Assembly (NCBI RefSeq): GCF_001715195.1
Contig: NZ_MDWE01000031.1
Coordinates: 1-54,419, forward strand
Source of the DNA: Rhodohalobacter halophilus
GTDB taxonomy: Bacteria > Bacteroidota > Rhodothermia > Balneolales > Balneolaceae
Reading direction: 5' to 3'
DNA length: 54,419 bases
Position 1 is the first letter of the stretch. Every line of letters begins with the position of its first letter. Below are positions 44,232 through 50,012 of this stretch, piece after piece. The notes under the pieces were generated by a model. The model worked only from the letters and a program-made list of their open reading frames with translations, ran no database searches and was not told the DNA's origin. The translations under genes were made by a program, and so were the position numbers.

Positions 44232-44774
44232 TTATGAGCTGTACTCTTCTGCACAGGAGCTTAAGTGCTTAATTACACGGTGTCTCCGCTGCCACGCATT
44301 ATTTACTGATATATCAAATTTTTCGGCTACATCGGCCGCATCCGCCTCCGGATAGGTAAGCAGAAATTCGACCAGAGAGCGGTAGTGAGCTTTCAACTTA
44401 TCAATACAGTGCTTTAAGATCTGTTTACGATCATCATTTATCAAATTCCAGATCTGATTTTCCGGCACAACCGGTTCTTCCGCGAGCTCTTCATACTCAT
44501 TGAAGTTGTAATCACGTAAAAGGTTGAGATAGGTGTGGCGGGCGGCTTTCATCATATATTTTGCAAGCCCGCCAGGATTATCAATCACGTCTTCACGAAT
44601 TTTGGGAATCAAATATTCAAACATCTGCTGTACAGCGTCTTCCGCATTCTCAGGCGTTGCGCCCATTCGGGCGATCAAATACTTTTTCAGAATAACCAGA
44701 GAGTCGGCACAGATCTGGTTTACAGATTGTCTATCATTCCTCTGAAGTGCTTCTACAAGTTCTGAATAGTCCAT
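44232..44774 (-). CDS. RNA polymerase ECF-type sigma factor
   Basis: A 180-residue sigma-70 family protein. Region 2 includes GATPENAEDAVQQMFEYLIP and AKYMMKAARHTYLNLLRDYN; region 4 is a helix-turn-helix in ADAADVAEKFDISVNNAWQR followed by RRHRVIKHL. The 'DAVQQMF' segment corresponds to the DDxxQExF element of region 2.1. It is transcribed before the anti-sigma-like gene. An ATG with weak ribosome-binding site is used. No autoregulated promoter motif could be identified with confidence in the 100 bases upstream. Confidence 0.87.
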   Translation of the reverse strand: MDYSELVEALQRNDRQSVNQICADSLVILKKYLIARMGATPENAEDAVQQMFEYLIPKIREDVIDNPGGLAKYMMKAARHTYLNLLRDYNFNEYEELAEEPVVPENQIWNLINDDRKQILKHCIDKLKAHYRSLVEFLLTYPEADAADVAEKFDISVNNAWQRRHRVIKHLSSCAEEYSS

Positions 44775-44874
44775 ACCCCGGCAGATTTTATTTTGTGGAA
44801 CTTTGAAGATAACAGATGATCTGAACTGAGCAAATTAAAAATAAGCTTAAACGCGTAGGTGATAACGCTATCTT

Positions 44875-45588
44875 TCAAATCAGATTCTTGTTTCGAAAGC
44901 TAATAAATCGGTCTCCCGCAATAATAATATGATCATCCAAGGGAATTCCAATATGTTTTCCGCTCTCTACGATTCGGTTTGTTAAATTGATGTCTGAAGC
45001 GGACTCCTTTGCATATCCGGACGGATGATTGTGAGCCACTAAAATAGAATTGGCCTGATTCAGAATGGCCTGGCGCATCACCTCCGGCACATCCACAACC
45101 GTTGCCTTATTTCCACCCTGACTGATTTTCTTATATCCGGTTAAAATTTTTGCGTTGTTCAGAAATGCCACGTAGAACTCCTCGTGTGGAAGATCTCTCA
45201 ACCGAGGAGCAAAAAATGCGGCCGCATCATCCGGTGATGTAATTTTTACCTGGTCGCCCAGCGATGCCATCTGGATCCGTTTGGATAGTTCAAAAACAGC
45301 CTCGAGCGTGAGCGCCTTGACCTTCGCAATTCCGGGTATCACTTTTAGGGATTGCCAGTCTTGACGTGAAAGGTTTCTGAGGCCGTCAAATCGATCCAGC
45401 AGTGCACGCGATGCATCAATTACGTTCATCCCTTTGGTACCGGTTCGCAGCAGAATGGCCAATAGTTCAGCATCAGAAAGTGAATCAGCTCCGTACTTAA
45501 GCAACTTCTCTCTTGGCTGTTCATCCGGCTGCATATCGCGCACGGCTCGTCCAAAATATTTTTTCGTATCAAATTCCTCTGTTCTCAT
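44875..45588 (-). CDS. radC: RadC family (JAB-domain) protein
   Basis: A 237-residue protein with an N-terminal helix-hairpin-helix region (LKVIPGIAKVKALTLEAVFE) and a C-terminal MPN/JAB domain. The metal motif is HNHPSGYAKESASD at about residues 190-203, with the upstream catalytic Glu in EEFYVAFLNN. I use ATG 45588, preceded by AAGGAAAG, over a TTG at 45618. RadC was linked to repair but its enzymatic role is unresolved. It has 100 bases to the sigma gene on its left and repeat-rich sequence upstream. Confidence 0.92.
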   Translation of the reverse strand: MRTEEFDTKKYFGRAVRDMQPDEQPREKLLKYGADSLSDAELLAILLRTGTKGMNVIDASRALLDRFDGLRNLSRQDWQSLKVIPGIAKVKALTLEAVFELSKRIQMASLGDQVKITSPDDAAAFFAPRLRDLPHEEFYVAFLNNAKILTGYKKISQGGNKATVVDVPEVMRQAILNQANSILVAHNHPSGYAKESASDINLTNRIVESGKHIGIPLDDHIIIAGDRFISFRNKNLI

Positions 45589-45653
45589 ATCTCTTTCCTT
45601 TTTATCTGTAAGAGGCAAAAACAGAGAGTTCCTTACAAAATTTTTTCAAATCC

Positions 45654-45684
45654 CCCGACAGACCGCTACCCGCGGTCAGTCGGG
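45654..45684. repeat. REP-like hairpin, GACCGC family (copy 1)
   Basis: CCCGACAGACCGC (45654-45666) and GCGGTCAGTCGGG (45672-45684) form a 13-bp stem with one mismatch and a TACCC loop. Related hairpins lie at 48026-48054 and 48115-48145, on the other side of the HTH/DUF2975 cluster. Confidence 0.75.
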
Positions 45685-45738
45685 AAAACCCTGAAACCGT
45701 TGTTCCCAAACTCGGGTAAGGTTGTGCCAAATACTATA

Positions 45739-45776
45739 TTCGTGGCACGACTTGGAGACGTGCCACGAGTAACAAC
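45739..45776. repeat. REP-like hairpin, CGTGGCACG family (copy 1)
   Basis: CGTGGCACG (45741-45749) and CGTGCCACG (45759-45767) make a perfect 9-bp stem, followed by AGTAACAAC. Its partner at 48073-48110 matches at 34 of 38 positions, including the flanking TTCGTGG and AGTAACAAC, and has a compensating G-T pair in the stem. Confidence 0.8.
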
Positions 45777-45784
45777 AGGTTCGT

Positions 45785-45800
45785 GGCCGACGCATCGGTC
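45785..45800. repeat. short hairpin, degenerate GACCGC family relative
   Basis: GGCCGA and TCGGTC flank a CGCA loop at 45785-45800, just before the HTH gene's stop. The core CGCAT resembles the GCATA loops of the GACCGC family, so it may be a decayed copy; the support is weak. Confidence 0.4.
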
Positions 45801-45811
45801 GGGCGGACTTT

Positions 45812-46021
45812 TCAGTCATCGTCCCGATACTCCAAAATATCACCCGGCTGGCATTCAAGCGCCTCGCAAATCACCTCAAGTGTGGAAAAGCGAATGGCCT
45901 TGGCCTTGCCAGTTTTAAGAATAGAGAGGTTCGACATGGTGATATCCACCTTCTCGGAAAGTTCTGTGAGCGACATCTTTCGCTTGGCCAGCATTACATC
46001 CAGATTTACGATGATAGCCAT
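45812..46021 (-). CDS. small HTH transcriptional regulator (Xre/YozG-like)
   Basis: A 69-residue DNA-binding protein that is almost entirely one helix-turn-helix: KMSLTELSEKVDITMSNLSI forms helices 2-3, with ALECQPGDILEYRDD at the end as in YozG-type regulators. In many bacteria such a gene sits next to DUF2975 membrane-protein genes; here it is the last gene of the run with three of them. Its ATG lies two bases after the stop that the frameshifted DUF2975 gene would have if intact, and 16 bases after the stop it actually has. It is bounded downstream by hairpin repeats. Confidence 0.88.
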   Translation of the reverse strand: MAIIVNLDVMLAKRKMSLTELSEKVDITMSNLSILKTGKAKAIRFSTLEVICEALECQPGDILEYRDDD

Positions 46022-46037
46022 GGTTACACCGTCAGTT

Positions 46038-46643
46038 TTAATTCCTGATACATATCATGCCCTTTTTCGAAAACCGCAGCAAGGGCAAAAAGCAGGAGCC
46101 AAAGACAAAACTGCCAAGTTCAAAATCGAGGCTTACCGAGATTTCATTGGCAACCATAAGTTCATCAATGGGTACCACAAAAAGCTGATACATAAGCCAC
46201 CCGAGGAGCTCGAAAGCTATGATCAAACCGGCAATAATTTTAAGCCGCTTGATATTCTTTTGGGTGAAGACTTTATCATTCCAGGCTGATTTGAGGATCA
46301 TACGAAGTTGAAAAAAACCAAACAGAGATAAACCCAATCCAATTATCAAAGAGATGATCATTCCGACATAAAGGCCAAAATGGTTATTCATGATATAATC
46401 CAGATTTAGGAAAGCTGTGGCTGAGTCGATGCTGATCATGGACGAGTCGATCGCTGTTTGAAAAGTAAGCTGATCAGCTTCTACCGGAATTTGAATTTTT
46501 AAAAATTCCACCGTCAGGCCAAAAGTATGCTTGGCGAAAATGAGTCCAATCAACAGTATTGCAACTCCACACAACGCGTACCAAAGAAAATTGATAATGG
46601 CGTATGAGTAATAAACTGAATTTTTGTCTTTAAGTGAATTCAT
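46038..46643 (-). CDS. DUF2975-type membrane protein, third paralog, with C-terminal frameshift
   Basis: A 201-residue protein with four hydrophobic segments (about residues 15-38, 88-112, 134-155 and 172-190). The tail in this frame (SCFLPLLRFSKKGMICIRN) does not match its paralogs. After TTTGG at about 46099 the other reading frame gives LLLFALAAVFEKGHDMYQEL then KLTV and stops at 46024, exactly matching the LTV ending and junction of the two upstream paralogs. A single lost base after GG explains this, either in the genome or in the sequence. The intact gene would end two bases before the HTH gene. Family function is unknown. Confidence 0.8.
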   Translation of the reverse strand: MNSLKDKNSVYYSYAIINFLWYALCGVAILLIGLIFAKHTFGLTVEFLKIQIPVEADQLTFQTAIDSSMISIDSATAFLNLDYIMNNHFGLYVGMIISLIIGLGLSLFGFFQLRMILKSAWNDKVFTQKNIKRLKIIAGLIIAFELLGWLMYQLFVVPIDELMVANEISVSLDFELGSFVFGSCFLPLLRFSKKGMICIRN

Positions 46644-46646
46644 AAT

Positions 46647-47273
46647 CTACACCGTCAATTTTTGTTCTTCGTGCATGATAGCTGCCCGGTTCAGAATTTC
46701 GGCAATCACAAAGCAGACCAAGCCGGCAAAGAAAAGAGTAAAATCAAACGGAGGCAGTACAGCTGTGATCTCATCCATCATAACATGAGAATCAAAATAG
46801 AGTTTTACTCCCCACTCGAAAAGAAATCTGAGAGGCGCGGCTATAACCAAAAGAAACCCCACAATCCGAATGTCTGATCCGTTTTGAATCGTAAATGTAT
46901 CCGTTTTATGCATGGCGTCCAGAACCCGTTTCAGCACTGAAAATCCGTAAAGCGCTAATCCAAAAATTCCTATTTGAACAAGAAGCAATATCGCGCCGAG
47001 CATCACCTCACCCTTCAGAGGCATAAAACTCATCTCTACGCTTCCGGCCGAAAACAAAAACGCCTGCTCACCCGATAATACCTCTTTTAGATGATTCACT
47101 AAAAAAGATGAATCCAGATATACCGAAAACGTAGCTCCAATCTCACCCCCCGAATAAACAAAAATGCCCAGCATCAGAAGTTGTCCGGCTATGGTAACGA
47201 GCAGAACCGCCCAGATGAATTGGGCTACAAACCTCAGAAATGAAATAATAGACCAGCTTCCGAAAGTTTTCAT
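46647..47273 (-). CDS. DUF2975-type membrane protein, second paralog
   Basis: A 208-residue membrane protein with four hydrophobic segments, the pattern of the DUF2975 family. It starts SWSIISFLRFVAQFIWAVLL and ends NRAAIMHEEQKLTV; the last residues are the same as in the first paralog. Its middle, GVRDA/VLDAMHKTDTFTIQNGSDIR, corresponds to the conserved cytoplasmic loop of the family (VFTQKN or FMAQNS in the others). It lies 3 bases from the next gene, so the three paralogs and the HTH gene form one operon. Confidence 0.8.
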   Translation of the reverse strand: MKTFGSWSIISFLRFVAQFIWAVLLVTIAGQLLMLGIFVYSGGEIGATFSVYLDSSFLVNHLKEVLSGEQAFLFSAGSVEMSFMPLKGEVMLGAILLLVQIGIFGLALYGFSVLKRVLDAMHKTDTFTIQNGSDIRIVGFLLVIAAPLRFLFEWGVKLYFDSHVMMDEITAVLPPFDFTLFFAGLVCFVIAEILNRAAIMHEEQKLTV

Positions 47274-47275
47274 AT

Positions 47276-47902
47276 CTACACCGTCAGTTTTTGTTCTTCG
47301 TAAATATTACGCCCCTCTTCCATGATGTAGCCAAACAGCACGAGTATCATCCCCACCAGAATAAACTCAACCATATAGCCACTTGAGCCGCTAATCTCAC
47401 TCCCCGGCGCAGACAACTCATCCCGGATCAAATAGGAAATAAGAAAGCCTCGGAGGTAGTAGTAAATTCCAATTGTTGCCACAGTATTACCGGCAAATTT
47501 CAGGTATTTGGAATTTTGAGCCATAAACAGCTGTCCTTTGGCAACGAGATGAAAAAACTTTGCCATCAGGAAGAAAACAGCTACAAGCGCTAAACTTTTA
47601 AGCAACTCAGCCATCATCAGGAGATAGACATTCAATCCCAGTGAAAAAGGCAGTGTTATATAGAGAGTTTCCTTACGCTGAGAGACCTCAATACTCTCCG
47701 ACAGCATATCACCGCTCGTTTTCGAAACAGTTTCTACCGGCATGCTACCCACACCTCCATCGTGAATAAAAACAGCCAACGTATAGGCCACAAAACCGAT
47801 CATAATTACCGCCCCAAAAAGCGACAAAAACGCCAGTTGACGAAGCAGAGTGAGTTCTTTTTCTAAATATTGTATCATATCGTCAAGTATTAGATCATAC
47901 AT
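47276..47902 (-). CDS. DUF2975-type membrane protein, first paralog
   Basis: A 208-residue protein of the same layout as the two that follow: four hydrophobic segments, the loop VAKGQLFMAQNSKYLK, and the terminal IYEEQKLTV. The start is ATG 47902, preceded by GGAG. The stop TAG is followed two bases later by the ATG of the next gene, an arrangement repeated at the junctions of the run (see finding). It probably carries the operon promoter in the 347-base gap upstream, together with the hairpin repeats. Confidence 0.8.
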   Translation of the reverse strand: MYDLILDDMIQYLEKELTLLRQLAFLSLFGAVIMIGFVAYTLAVFIHDGGVGSMPVETVSKTSGDMLSESIEVSQRKETLYITLPFSLGLNVYLLMMAELLKSLALVAVFFLMAKFFHLVAKGQLFMAQNSKYLKFAGNTVATIGIYYYLRGFLISYLIRDELSAPGSEISGSSGYMVEFILVGMILVLFGYIMEEGRNIYEEQKLTV

Positions 47903-47927
47903 TCATCTCCAATTACGGCAAATATTT

Positions 47928-47952
47928 ATTGATAAACAATAAATATTTGCCC
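47928..47952. promoter_or_regulatory. AT-rich inverted repeat upstream of the DUF2975 operon
   Basis: AAATATTTATTG and CAATAAATATTT around 47928-47952 form a nearly perfect 12-bp dyad about 25 bases upstream of the first DUF2975 gene start. This is a good place for an operator for the HTH protein of the same operon, but no second copy was found, so this is inference. Confidence 0.4.
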
Positions 47953-48025
47953 TTTAAAGAAATTTTATCCTTCTGTAGTCATTTACAGAATACCGAGGCA
48001 TTGTTTAAATCCTTAATAATTATGA

Positions 48026-48054
48026 CCGTCTGACCGCGCATAGCGGTCTGACGG
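48026..48054. repeat. REP-like hairpin, GACCGC family (copy 2)
   Basis: CCGTCTGACCGC (48026-48037) and GCGGTCTGACGG (48043-48054) form a 12-bp stem with one mismatch and a GCATA loop. The first 21 bases recur identically at 48116-48136. Confidence 0.8.
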
Positions 48055-48072
48055 GGGCATGAATCTCAACCA

Positions 48073-48110
48073 TTCGTGGTACGACTTTAAGGCGTGCCAC
48101 GAGTAACAAC
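48073..48110. repeat. REP-like hairpin, CGTGGCACG family (copy 2)
   Basis: CGTGGTACG (48075-48083) and CGTGCCACG (48093-48101) pair with one G-T wobble, followed by AGTAACAAC. It is in the same orientation as the copy at 45739-45776, 2.3 kb away. Confidence 0.8.
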
Positions 48111-48114
48111 CAGA

Positions 48115-48145
48115 CCCGTCTGACCGCGCATAGCGGACGGACGGG
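48115..48145. repeat. REP-like hairpin, GACCGC family (copy 3)
   Basis: CCCGTCTGACCGC (48115-48127), loop GCATA, then GCGGACGGACGGG (48133-48145); the stem has two mismatches. It shares 21 identical bases with copy 2. Confidence 0.75.
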
Positions 48146-48149
48146 ACAT

Positions 48150-48182
48150 AAAAAAACCGGCAGACTCTTTCGAATCTGCCGG
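48150..48182 (-). terminator. intrinsic terminator of the AMP nucleosidase gene
   Basis: CCGGCAGA (48157-48164) and TCTGCCGG (48175-48182) form an 8-bp stem with ten-base loop; on the minus strand the stem is followed by TTTTTTAT. It is 68 bases after the AMP nucleosidase stop. Confidence 0.8.
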
Positions 48183-48249
48183 CTCAATTTTATAGTAGAT
48201 AATATTCTAAACTAAACTCGCTTCTCGCCTTTTTCCTCTCGCCAATAAA

Positions 48250-49428
48250 TCATTCCGCTCCGCCCATTAACGGTTCGTTGAATGCACGAATGCTGGAGTT
48301 GGGCAAACCTTCAGGATAGTATGTTTTACTCAGATCCAATGCCTCAATCACCATTTTCAGATGCAGCTCCTTGGAGTTTTCGTAGAATGACTGCGCTGCG
48401 CCGGTCAGTTTTGGCTTTCCATGCAGCGGCTTATCGCTTACACAAAGGAGAGTGGCAAACGGCACGCGGTAGCGGTATCCGTTGGTCGCCACCGTAGCCG
48501 ATTCCATATCCACCGCCAAACTGCGGCTGATGTGAATCTGCTCAACCGTTCGTTTTTTAATGAATTCCCAGTTCCGGTTCGCCGTAGTATAGACCGTTCC
48601 AAGACGGTAATTTCTGTCATACTTATCCATCACCTCTTTCAGATACACATTCAACAGGTGATTGGGCGTGATTGGAATGTTGAGCGGAAGAATATCATCC
48701 AGAACTTTATCCTCGCGCATAAAGCCGGTGGCAAGGACAAAATCCCCGATCTCCTGGTGGTTTCGGAGTCCGCCGCAGTGCCCGACCATAATCATGGCAT
48801 CGGGACGCAGAACCGCCACATGATCTGAAATCGTTTTAGCATTAGACGGTCCCACCCCCATATTAATCAGTGTAACTCCTTTATTATCGGGCAGTTTGTG
48901 ATGATAGGCCGGCATCTGTACAGACCGGTTTGGCTCTACACAATCCGGGTAGCGCTCCTTAAACACCTCAACGTGCATATCGTAGTTGGTGAACAGGATG
49001 TACCGCTGAAAATCCTGAGGGCGTGTTCCGGTATAGTGCTCCAATCGGTTTAGGGAGATATCAATTCGTTCGGGAGTAAACAGGAAAAGTTTCTTCTGTG
49101 TGATATCCCACTCATCCTCATCAGCATTATCAAACAGGTTTGGGTCATTCATTTCAACCCGGGGACGGGATGGAAATATTTTCACATCCGCTCCCTTTTG
49201 CATCAGTTTTTTCAGTTCGCGCGTCAGATACCACCGGTAGGCGTGCGGAAGCGCCATCTCTCCGGTTATAATCGGGTTATGCTCCGACCACGACCGTTTG
49301 ATCATCAACTTTGGATAATCGCCCTCATCGTAGATCTCCTCCATCATATCGCACGCTTTGTTGGCGAGCTCCTCGATTTCTTTTTCGTTGCTGAATGAGT
49401 CTTTTGTAATTTCAAGTCGTTTATCCAT
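48250..49428 (-). CDS. amn: AMP nucleosidase
   Basis: A 392-residue enzyme that hydrolyses AMP to adenine and ribose 5-phosphate. The C-terminal nucleoside-phosphorylase-like domain shows LINMGVGPSNAKTISDHVAV, MIMVGHCGGLRNHQEIGDF, and DMESATVATNGYRYRVPF, the catalytic core of the family; the N-terminal domain (HNPIITGEMALPHAYRWYLT) is the AMP nucleosidase-specific part. It is shorter than the 484-residue E. coli Amn, as in several Bacteroidota. The start is ATG 49428, only 14 bases from the divergent Nudix gene, so each promoter must sit within the other's coding region or the pair are read from outside. Confidence 0.93.
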   Translation of the reverse strand: MDKRLEITKDSFSNEKEIEELANKACDMMEEIYDEGDYPKLMIKRSWSEHNPIITGEMALPHAYRWYLTRELKKLMQKGADVKIFPSRPRVEMNDPNLFDNADEDEWDITQKKLFLFTPERIDISLNRLEHYTGTRPQDFQRYILFTNYDMHVEVFKERYPDCVEPNRSVQMPAYHHKLPDNKGVTLINMGVGPSNAKTISDHVAVLRPDAMIMVGHCGGLRNHQEIGDFVLATGFMREDKVLDDILPLNIPITPNHLLNVYLKEVMDKYDRNYRLGTVYTTANRNWEFIKKRTVEQIHISRSLAVDMESATVATNGYRYRVPFATLLCVSDKPLHGKPKLTGAAQSFYENSKELHLKMVIEALDLSKTYYPEGLPNSSIRAFNEPLMGGAE

Positions 49429-49442
49429 AAAAGAGGTTACTG

Positions 49443-50012
49443 ATGAGTGTTATGTTCAAATTTTCTAAACCCGGATGGGAACTGCTCAAAGATAAGAAAC
49501 TCTATGAAACTCCCATTTTTTCTCTGCATCAATTACAACTGAATCCACCCGAATTTCAGTCCAATCACCCGTACTACATTTTAAAAGCACCGGAGTGGAT
49601 TAATGTAATCCCCCTCACTGCTGAAAATGAAATTGTCTTGGTTGAGCAGTACCGTGTTGGTATTGATGAAACAACGCTGGAATTGCCGGGCGGAATGGTG
49701 GATCCGGGAGAAAAGCCGCTGGAAGCCTGCAAACGTGAGCTGCATGAAGAGACCGGCTATCTTTCTGATGAGTGGGAAAAGCTTGGCAGAACCAGTTCAA
49801 ACCCCGCCATTTTAAACAACTTCACACATCTTTATGTAGCCAGAAACTGCTCATACACGGGAAGTAACAATCCGGACGGCTCTGAAGATATCAAAGTTCA
49901 CACCATGCCTCTTAACCGTTTTCTATCCTTAGTTCAAAACGGAACTGTACACCACGCTATCGTATTGGCTGCAGTTGCCCAGTTTCTTTTAAATGAGAGG
50001 GATCTTGAGTAA
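49443..50012 (+). CDS. Nudix hydrolase (ADP-ribose pyrophosphatase-like)
   Basis: A 189-residue pyrophosphohydrolase. The Nudix box is complete at residues 84-106: G84, E90, R98-E99, E102-E103 and G105 in GMVDPGEKPLEACKREL-HEETGY. The layout, with YYILKAPEWINVIPLTAENE before the box and EQYRVG leading in, fits ADP-ribose or nucleotide-sugar pyrophosphatases. AGAGGT precedes the ATG. It sits back to back with AMP nucleosidase, suggesting nucleotide turnover, which is inference. Confidence 0.9.
   Translation: MSVMFKFSKPGWELLKDKKLYETPIFSLHQLQLNPPEFQSNHPYYILKAPEWINVIPLTAENEIVLVEQYRVGIDETTLELPGGMVDPGEKPLEACKRELHEETGYLSDEWEKLGRTSSNPAILNNFTHLYVARNCSYTGSNNPDGSEDIKVHTMPLNRFLSLVQNGTVHHAIVLAAVAQFLLNERDLE

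Follow-up and report, generated by a model that had tools for sequence, protein, structure and literature searches.

The 54,419-nucleotide (nt) contig of Rhodohalobacter halophilus analysed here (C25 of the 3.12-Mb, 92-contig assembly; hereafter the window) harbours at 45812-47902 an operon of one gene for a small helix-turn-helix (HTH) protein of the HTH_26 family and three genes for membrane proteins of the DUF2975 family, with hairpins of two families on either side. Comparison of related and public sequences suggests, with a probability of about one half, that the locus constitutes an autoregulated membrane sensor or immunity device, in which several receptors would act on one repressor and which would have received the hairpins later, at an ancestral chromosomal place. 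It represents the Balneolaceae form of a widespread YoaS-YozG-type pair, YoaS and YozG presumably being the gene names for the DUF2975 membrane protein and the Xre/HTH_26 regulator, respectively.

Gene content of the operon

The following features constitute the operon and its upstream region (aa, amino acids):

45812-46021, minus strand: HTH_26 regulator (Cro/CI-type, YozG-like), 69 aa, last gene of the operon (Pfam PF13443, E 5.8e-24)
46038-46643, minus strand: DUF2975 membrane protein, type alpha (PF11188, 30.1 bits; alignment and tree)
46647-47273, minus strand: DUF2975 membrane protein, type beta, tail EEQKLTV (PF11188, 30.1 bits; AlphaFold2 model)
47276-47902, minus strand: DUF2975 membrane protein, type delta, tail EEQKLTV, promoter-proximal (PF11188, 36.2 bits; alignment)
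47917-47951, unstranded: candidate operator, perfect 15-nt inverted repeat (arms 47917-47931 and 47937-47951), core at 47925-47943, TTTATTGATAAACAATAAA

Pfam and a hairpin search confirmed the content of one HTH and three DUF2975 genes flanked by two hairpin families, as proposed in an earlier note on this DNA, which did not point out the inverted repeat. All three DUF2975 matches exceed the Pfam cut-off of 27 bits. Since the intergenic gaps within the operon amount to only 16, 3 and 2 nt, the sequence suggests that the four genes form one transcription unit; the true start of the delta gene may be the later ATG at 47878. Scanning the four proteins against NCBIfam yielded nothing above cut-off, the weak matches including one of the delta protein to PspC (18.8 bits versus a cut-off of 136). 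By sequence, the HTH protein has a single distant match in PDB (3tyr, E 0.00045), and an Rfam scan of 44700-49500 gave no match at the gathering score.

Regulator and candidate operator

Within the genus, the regulator shares 88-97 % identity with 11 other copies and 65 % with a divergent twelfth. Public loci were taken as the 80 closest by HTH among at least 573 from an HTH profile search (thus a set of nearest matches, not a census), most of them from Bacillota and Bacteroidota and two from Balneolales. Their HTH proteins are 78-93 % identical to that of the window, the closest being encoded on a Balneolaceae contig from a metagenome-assembled genome (L221, 93 %). In all 80 loci, the gene immediately preceding that for the HTH protein encodes a DUF2975 protein, as called with our own iterated profile (three calls confirmed against Pfam), with a single copy in 79 and two in L230; DUF2975 is matched in 5 of 14 control genomes. 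The sole frequent and consistently placed neighbour family is DUF817, the gene for which follows closely on the HTH gene in 19 of the 80 loci (e.g., L224:4243-5058; one member scanned). An ABC-type ATPase-like family occurs in 10 of them at varying places.

The core TTTATTGATAAACAATAAA is present within 2 mismatches at the operon in all 13 DUF2975-bearing genomes of the genus, including G019, G021 and G026. Genus-wide, 9 of 10 sites with at most one mismatch are located at DUF2975 operons (two of these at other loci, in G019 and G021, and one in G026), the tenth (G003:C152) residing inside an open reading frame (ORF). For the public loci, a consensus TTTATTG-N5-C(A/G)ATAAA was applied, allowing up to 2 mismatches over its 14 fixed positions, with the A/G choice made after inspection of these loci. 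It was found in 76 of 79 upstream regions (57 exact), the median position relative to the called start being -58 (between -132 and +4, starts possibly being miscalled). By contrast, it occurs in 0 of 80 control regions from the downstream side of the HTH gene and in 9 of 395 shuffles that roughly preserve dinucleotides. The unmodified Balneolaceae 19-mer gave a mean best mismatch of 2.27 in the public loci versus 6.54 in base shuffles. A wider regulon was considered and rejected: the only other site of the window genome within 2 of 19 mismatches (on C44) falls inside an ORF, as does that of G003:C152.

Autoregulation is suggested by the combination of a small, near-invariant DNA-binding protein with a near-invariant inverted repeat preceding the operon that encodes it. 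In the proposed scheme, the HTH protein would bind, as a dimer, the TTTATTG-N5-C(A/G)ATAAA repeat that closely precedes the first gene and would repress its own operon.

Diverged paralogs with a conserved tail

An order-wide search retrieved a DUF2975 match at E 0.001 in 44 of 128 genomes (41 above cut-off). Together with the window and 13 other loci of the genus, the outside-genus regions make up 43 Balneolales operon loci, one region (L352) having been dropped for want of a match with the DUF2975 profile; in another (L334), no HTH match was found. Two to five DUF2975 genes are present in 21 of the 43 loci and a single one in 22 (some at contig ends), contrasting the nearly uniform single copy among the public loci. 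The unusual layout seen in three paralogs by the earlier note is hence borne out.

A FastTree phylogeny assigns most Balneolales DUF2975 proteins to alpha, beta (two neighbouring clades), gamma, delta or epsilon, and each of these five types is represented in several genera. Exceptions are a few proteins (G081, G106) placed outside of the types; the public single-copy proteins mostly lie elsewhere in the tree. Since the types are old and common to several genera, a recent tandem duplication as origin of the window's three paralogs was rejected; identity between the window's alpha protein and members of the other types is 11-20 %. As a separate observation, the alpha gene of G052 (L325), a genome outside this genus, branches within the alpha genes of the genus, which suggests exchange between genera. 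From promoter to end, the order delta - gamma - beta - alpha - epsilon - HTH holds in 20 of 21 multi-gene operons, as read by hand from profile matches and tree with the decayed members of G001 and G019 counted; the operon of G003 departs from it by an extra gamma gene in first position.

Despite their divergence, the paralogs have in common an FTxxN motif, predicted to be cytosolic, and an ExxLT(V/I) tail at the C-terminus. Nearly invariant columns in an alignment of 31 diverged paralogs are F126, N130, one glutamate, and the leucine and threonine of the tail, which is recognizable in two of the three DUF2975 genes of the window. Within types, mean pairwise identity is 0.70-0.88 over the last 9 residues versus 0.13-0.46 in 15-residue blocks of the loop between transmembrane helices (TM) 1 and 2. 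The longest DUF2975 ORF observed (367 aa; L332:2227-3330 in G104) also carries the usual tail. The AlphaFold2 model of the beta protein comprises four long helices (mean predicted local distance difference test score, pLDDT, 83.1; predicted template modelling score, pTM, 0.70). Helix count and the lysine and arginine residues near the TM2-TM3 turn suggest that the FTxxN motif faces the cytosol and the TM1-TM2 loop points outward.

A conserved tail on fast-changing membrane proteins suggests that the tail is the contact for the regulator. Each DUF2975 protein may accordingly be pictured as a four-helix membrane receptor with an outward TM1-TM2 loop, where a stimulus, most likely an envelope-active compound, would act. 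The FTxxN loop and the ExxLT(V/I) tail of a stimulated receptor would then hold the repressor at the membrane and thereby release the operon, similar to SdpI and SdpR. One regulator and one site would, in Balneolaceae, take input from several old and diverged receptors.

Single members of the arrays are subject to decay: the delta gene is broken in G001, the gamma gene is short in G019, and in G014 a beta gene survives as a fragment (residues 151-208, 46 % identical), making decay in place visible. In the window, translations and alignment place the final ~20 residues of the alpha gene (46038-46643) out of frame compared to relatives, so that its protein is missing the conserved tail; the frame break may be a true lesion or an assembly error. 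The loss of single members favours independent receptors, and the shared gene order is also compatible with a complex.

Genomic place of the operon

On the minus strand, the genes are arranged in the order amn - delta - beta - alpha - HTH - radC, with the following neighbouring features:

44875-45591, minus strand: radC-like gene, downstream neighbour (PF04002 and PF20582; PRK00024)
48150-48182, minus strand: likely intrinsic terminator of amn (stem and T run, recognized by eye), separating amn from the operon
48250-49428, minus strand: AMP nucleosidase-like gene (amn), upstream neighbour (PF01048; PRK08292, 367.6 bits)

The terminator sequence is identical in G001 and G003 and imperfect in G007 and G014. 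Among the 28 genomes of the genus, six carry the operon between radC and amn on one contig (G000, G001, G002, G003, G007, G014) and four beside one of these genes at a contig end (G006, G015, G017, G018). In five (G013, G020, G024, G026, G027), radC directly follows amn at a gap of 105-157 nt without the operon. In the remaining 13, the surroundings of amn are rearranged (G004, G019, G021, G022), a contig end interrupts the region, or one of the genes is absent. Operons at other loci exist in G019, G021 and G026, none of them with hairpins.

Outside the genus, 30 regions were retrieved, 10 with the operon between radC and amn, 7 with it beside amn only and 3 beside radC only; in the other 10, it is near neither gene within the fetched stretches. 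The HTH gene is ~2.7 kb away from radC in L327 and ~1.7 kb in L335. Since the 20 loci sharing this place belong to nine other genera of the family (all without hairpins), the position between radC and amn is, on this distribution, probably ancestral to the family. The five empty sites are best read as losses in view of the family-wide distribution. G014 (with operon) and G013 (empty site) are sisters with a support of 100 in a midpoint-rooted tree of four proteins from 25 genomes. Empty sites as sought by the earlier note do exist in the genus, and loss is the better reading of them. Judged by its distribution, the cluster is old and vertically inherited.

REP-like hairpins

The two families of hairpins, A and B, are arranged in the order A-B to the left and A-B-A to the right of the operon, and resemble repetitive extragenic palindromic (REP) elements:

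45655-45683, unstranded: family A hairpin (REP-like), 3' of the HTH gene (search and fold)
45740-45768, unstranded: family B hairpin (REP-like), 3' of the HTH gene (search and fold)
48026-48054, unstranded: family A hairpin, 3' of amn (search and fold)
48074-48102, unstranded: family B hairpin, one mismatch, 3' of amn (search and fold)
48116-48144, unstranded: family A hairpin, one mismatch, 3' of amn (search and fold)

All five are far more stable than shuffled sequences (folding z -4.6 to -6.9). By chance, the window would be expected to contain 0.04 copies of the 18-mer used in the search and 0.00 of the 21-mer; no further A or B copy was found in the 54 kb at the mismatch limits used. The search for other copies that the earlier note had recommended was run with exact arms in the 28 genomes of the genus, using the reversed sequence as control, and revealed 18 A and 12 B copies spread across the window genome. 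Family A is also present in G001 (13), G003 (10), G013 (6), G014 (14), G026 (22) and G027 (8), the other 21 genomes having 0-1 copies, and family B in G001 (9), G003 (10), G013 (2) and G014 (6), with none in the other 23. The reversed control gave 0 hits in each genome with at least 2 copies and elsewhere up to 3 (A) or 1 (B).

Of the 30 copies in the window genome, 29 were placed relative to ORFs of at least 120 aa, or to annotated genes inside the window (one A copy on C11 was left out). Eighteen reside in convergent, 8 in same-strand and none in divergent gaps; 2 lie at the end of the fetched stretch facing a 3' end, and 1 is inside an ORF. Two of the 28 copies outside such ORFs overlap a called ORF start. 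The facing stop codon is at most 80 nt away in 22 of 29 cases, the distances for the three exact copies of the window being 46, 135 and 202 nt. Like REP elements, including GTAG- or CGTC-tagged ones, families A and B are thus short palindromes (within 20-40 nt) in many copies, mostly intergenic, adjoining 3' ends of genes and often grouped; a location close to 3' ends of convergent and same-strand genes is also reported for REPs in the available text of PMC3733652. They differ from the tagged families described there by lacking an unpaired GTAG or CGTC end tag in the folds of the five window copies and an association with a Y1 transposase. Assignment to CGTC-tagged REPs was rejected, CGTC being paired within the stem in folds of family A. 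A REP-associated tyrosine transposase (RAYT), the search for which the earlier note advised, could not be linked to the hairpins: the genome has three Y1_Tnp genes, and no A or B copy occurs in the 3.2-3.3 kb around each of them, so that A and B as cognate REPs of these transposases were rejected.

A or B hairpins next to the operon were detected only in G000, G001 and G003, i.e., in 3 of 43 operon loci (a weak A-like match with 5 mismatches within amn of G014 was excluded). Elsewhere, in G014 (L196, G014:C195) and G013 (L197, G013:C60), a short stretch with one small ORF is enclosed by two B hairpins separated by ~650 nt, A hairpins being nearby. From their genome-wide placement, the hairpins are dispersed REP-like palindromes near 3' ends of genes that landed downstream of amn and of the HTH gene, their bracketing of the operon being incidental. 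This agrees with the second of two suggestions in the earlier note, REP-type elements around an unrelated cluster.

Comparison with known systems

Pairing of DUF2975 with a YozG-like regulator, described as known in the earlier note, corresponds to the Xre/YoaS-like pair listed with 32 occurrences in the available part of Makarova et al. 2009 (PMC2701414). The locus shares with such pairs the two families, the order of membrane gene followed by HTH gene and, as observed in the public loci, the site and the tail. It differs by the number of DUF2975 genes, usually one, which reaches up to five diverged types in Balneolaceae, some with longer outer loops; one DUF2975 per regulator is therefore a trait of the usual layout and does not define the family. 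As far as the available texts of the respective sources go, yozG is among the Bacillus subtilis genes with changed expression in one study, and an Xre subfamily associated with restriction-modification genes also goes by the name YozG. The SdpR-SdpI system of B. subtilis likewise combines in one operon a small autorepressor and a polytopic membrane protein, for which membrane sequestration was proposed (available text of PMC1626106). The gene order differs from that of the DUF2975 locus, beside which no toxin gene was seen, none having been sought. The literature searched, in part available as excerpts and without subscription journals and regulon databases, contained no description of the operator or of multi-gene arrays. 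Hence, the poorly studied Xre/YoaS-like pair is known, and the operator and the arrays are seemingly undescribed.

Alternative explanations

Several observations weigh against an autoregulated sensor or immunity device as outlined above. SdpR, an ArsR-family protein, and SdpI belong to other families than HTH_26 and DUF2975, which are the sole families above cut-off here (Pfam, E up to 1; HTH_5 of the ArsR family matches the regulator at E 0.08, below cut-off), and the comparison with SdpRI is therefore one of layout only. Away from these operons, the 28 genomes contain 12 sites at two mismatches from the 19-mer, and the reversed control yields 9 hits, so that two-mismatch hits alone are weak proof. 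The site test failed in three public upstream regions (L221, L244, L253): L244 has a gene called short (60 aa), and L221 was compared with G014:C299, where the site is located farther upstream behind a decayed gene. Nor is the site present at the second, divergent operon of G002 (L127, G002:C3; HTH 65 % identical), an HTH-DUF2975 pair whose upstream genes encode, among others, a hexapeptide-repeat protein and a DUF4386 protein. Another factor might bind the site, or it might be used for activation. With respect to the receptors, the window's own alpha protein has no conserved tail, and blocks of the TM3-TM4 loop, in some types also the N-terminus and TM1, are as low in identity as the TM1-TM2 loop. 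Finally, a Foldseek search of PDB found no significant structural relative among 75 matches up to E 10 (best E 0.83, none at E 0.001), the top matches being mostly four-helix proteins of the TARP/claudin kind at a query TM-score of ~0.2-0.3.

Alternatively, the paralogs might be subunits of one heteromeric membrane complex, e.g., a permease, under its own regulator. The common gene order, the tight spacing and the DUF817 membrane gene downstream of HTH in part of the public loci would fit such a complex, and the available text of PMC2701414 refers to YoaS-like proteins as "a membrane protein, likely permease". However, every type is absent from some operons and single-gene operons are common, so that no subunit is obligatory, which renders a complex possible and yet distinctly less probable than separate receptors. 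Reading the locus as a toxin-antitoxin-like pair, with the membrane protein as toxin and the Xre protein as antitoxin, is improbable. Xre proteins do act as antitoxins in known systems, and those with a membrane protein as putative toxin are considered potentially novel toxin-antitoxin systems in the accessible part of PMC2701414, whose authors nevertheless excluded the Xre/YoaS-like pairs from the candidates. Moreover, a single HTH gene is preceded by as many as five genes for long, diverged membrane proteins, which decay individually while the HTH gene stays (G001, G014, G019).

As to the hairpins, selection might have placed them as terminators, mRNA stabilisers or attenuators of the operon, considering that most copies reside near stop codons, that the five window copies fold stably and that comparable A copies persist in G003, one to the left and two to the right. 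Their absence from the operons of most relatives and the same placement at unrelated genes make this unlikely. Even less can be said for the suggestion of the earlier note that the unit moved as one piece, the two hairpin sets representing the ends of a mobile or composite element that brought the operon to its place between radC and amn. In favour of such an element are the resemblance of the hairpins on the two sides, the five genomes with a short radC-amn gap and the operons at other loci in G019, G021 and G026. The repeats do not accompany the operon, though: they are missing from G002, G007 and G014 and from other genera at the same place as well as from the operons at other loci, and are scattered over the genome away from the three Y1 transposase genes. 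Mobility of this kind is thus highly improbable, and the bracketing by hairpins is ordinary.

Implications

DUF2975 is a domain of unknown function according to its Pfam description and also occurs in Bacillus subtilis. The predicted operator, the conserved tail and the FTxxN motif make its function directly testable. Tentatively, and with somewhat less confidence than for the locus itself, one may speculate on a cross-phylum signalling device, in which DUF2975 receptors control a near-invariant HTH repressor via their tail, with a single operator kept across Bacillota, Bacteroidota and Balneolota; Balneolaceae would have elaborated it to an ordered array of up to five receptors, members of which drop out singly. 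In these arrays, regulator, site and tail are the fixed parts and the outer loops the variable ones, which points to sensing or immunity. If true, the Balneolaceae locus would represent an arrangement of many inputs to one switch.

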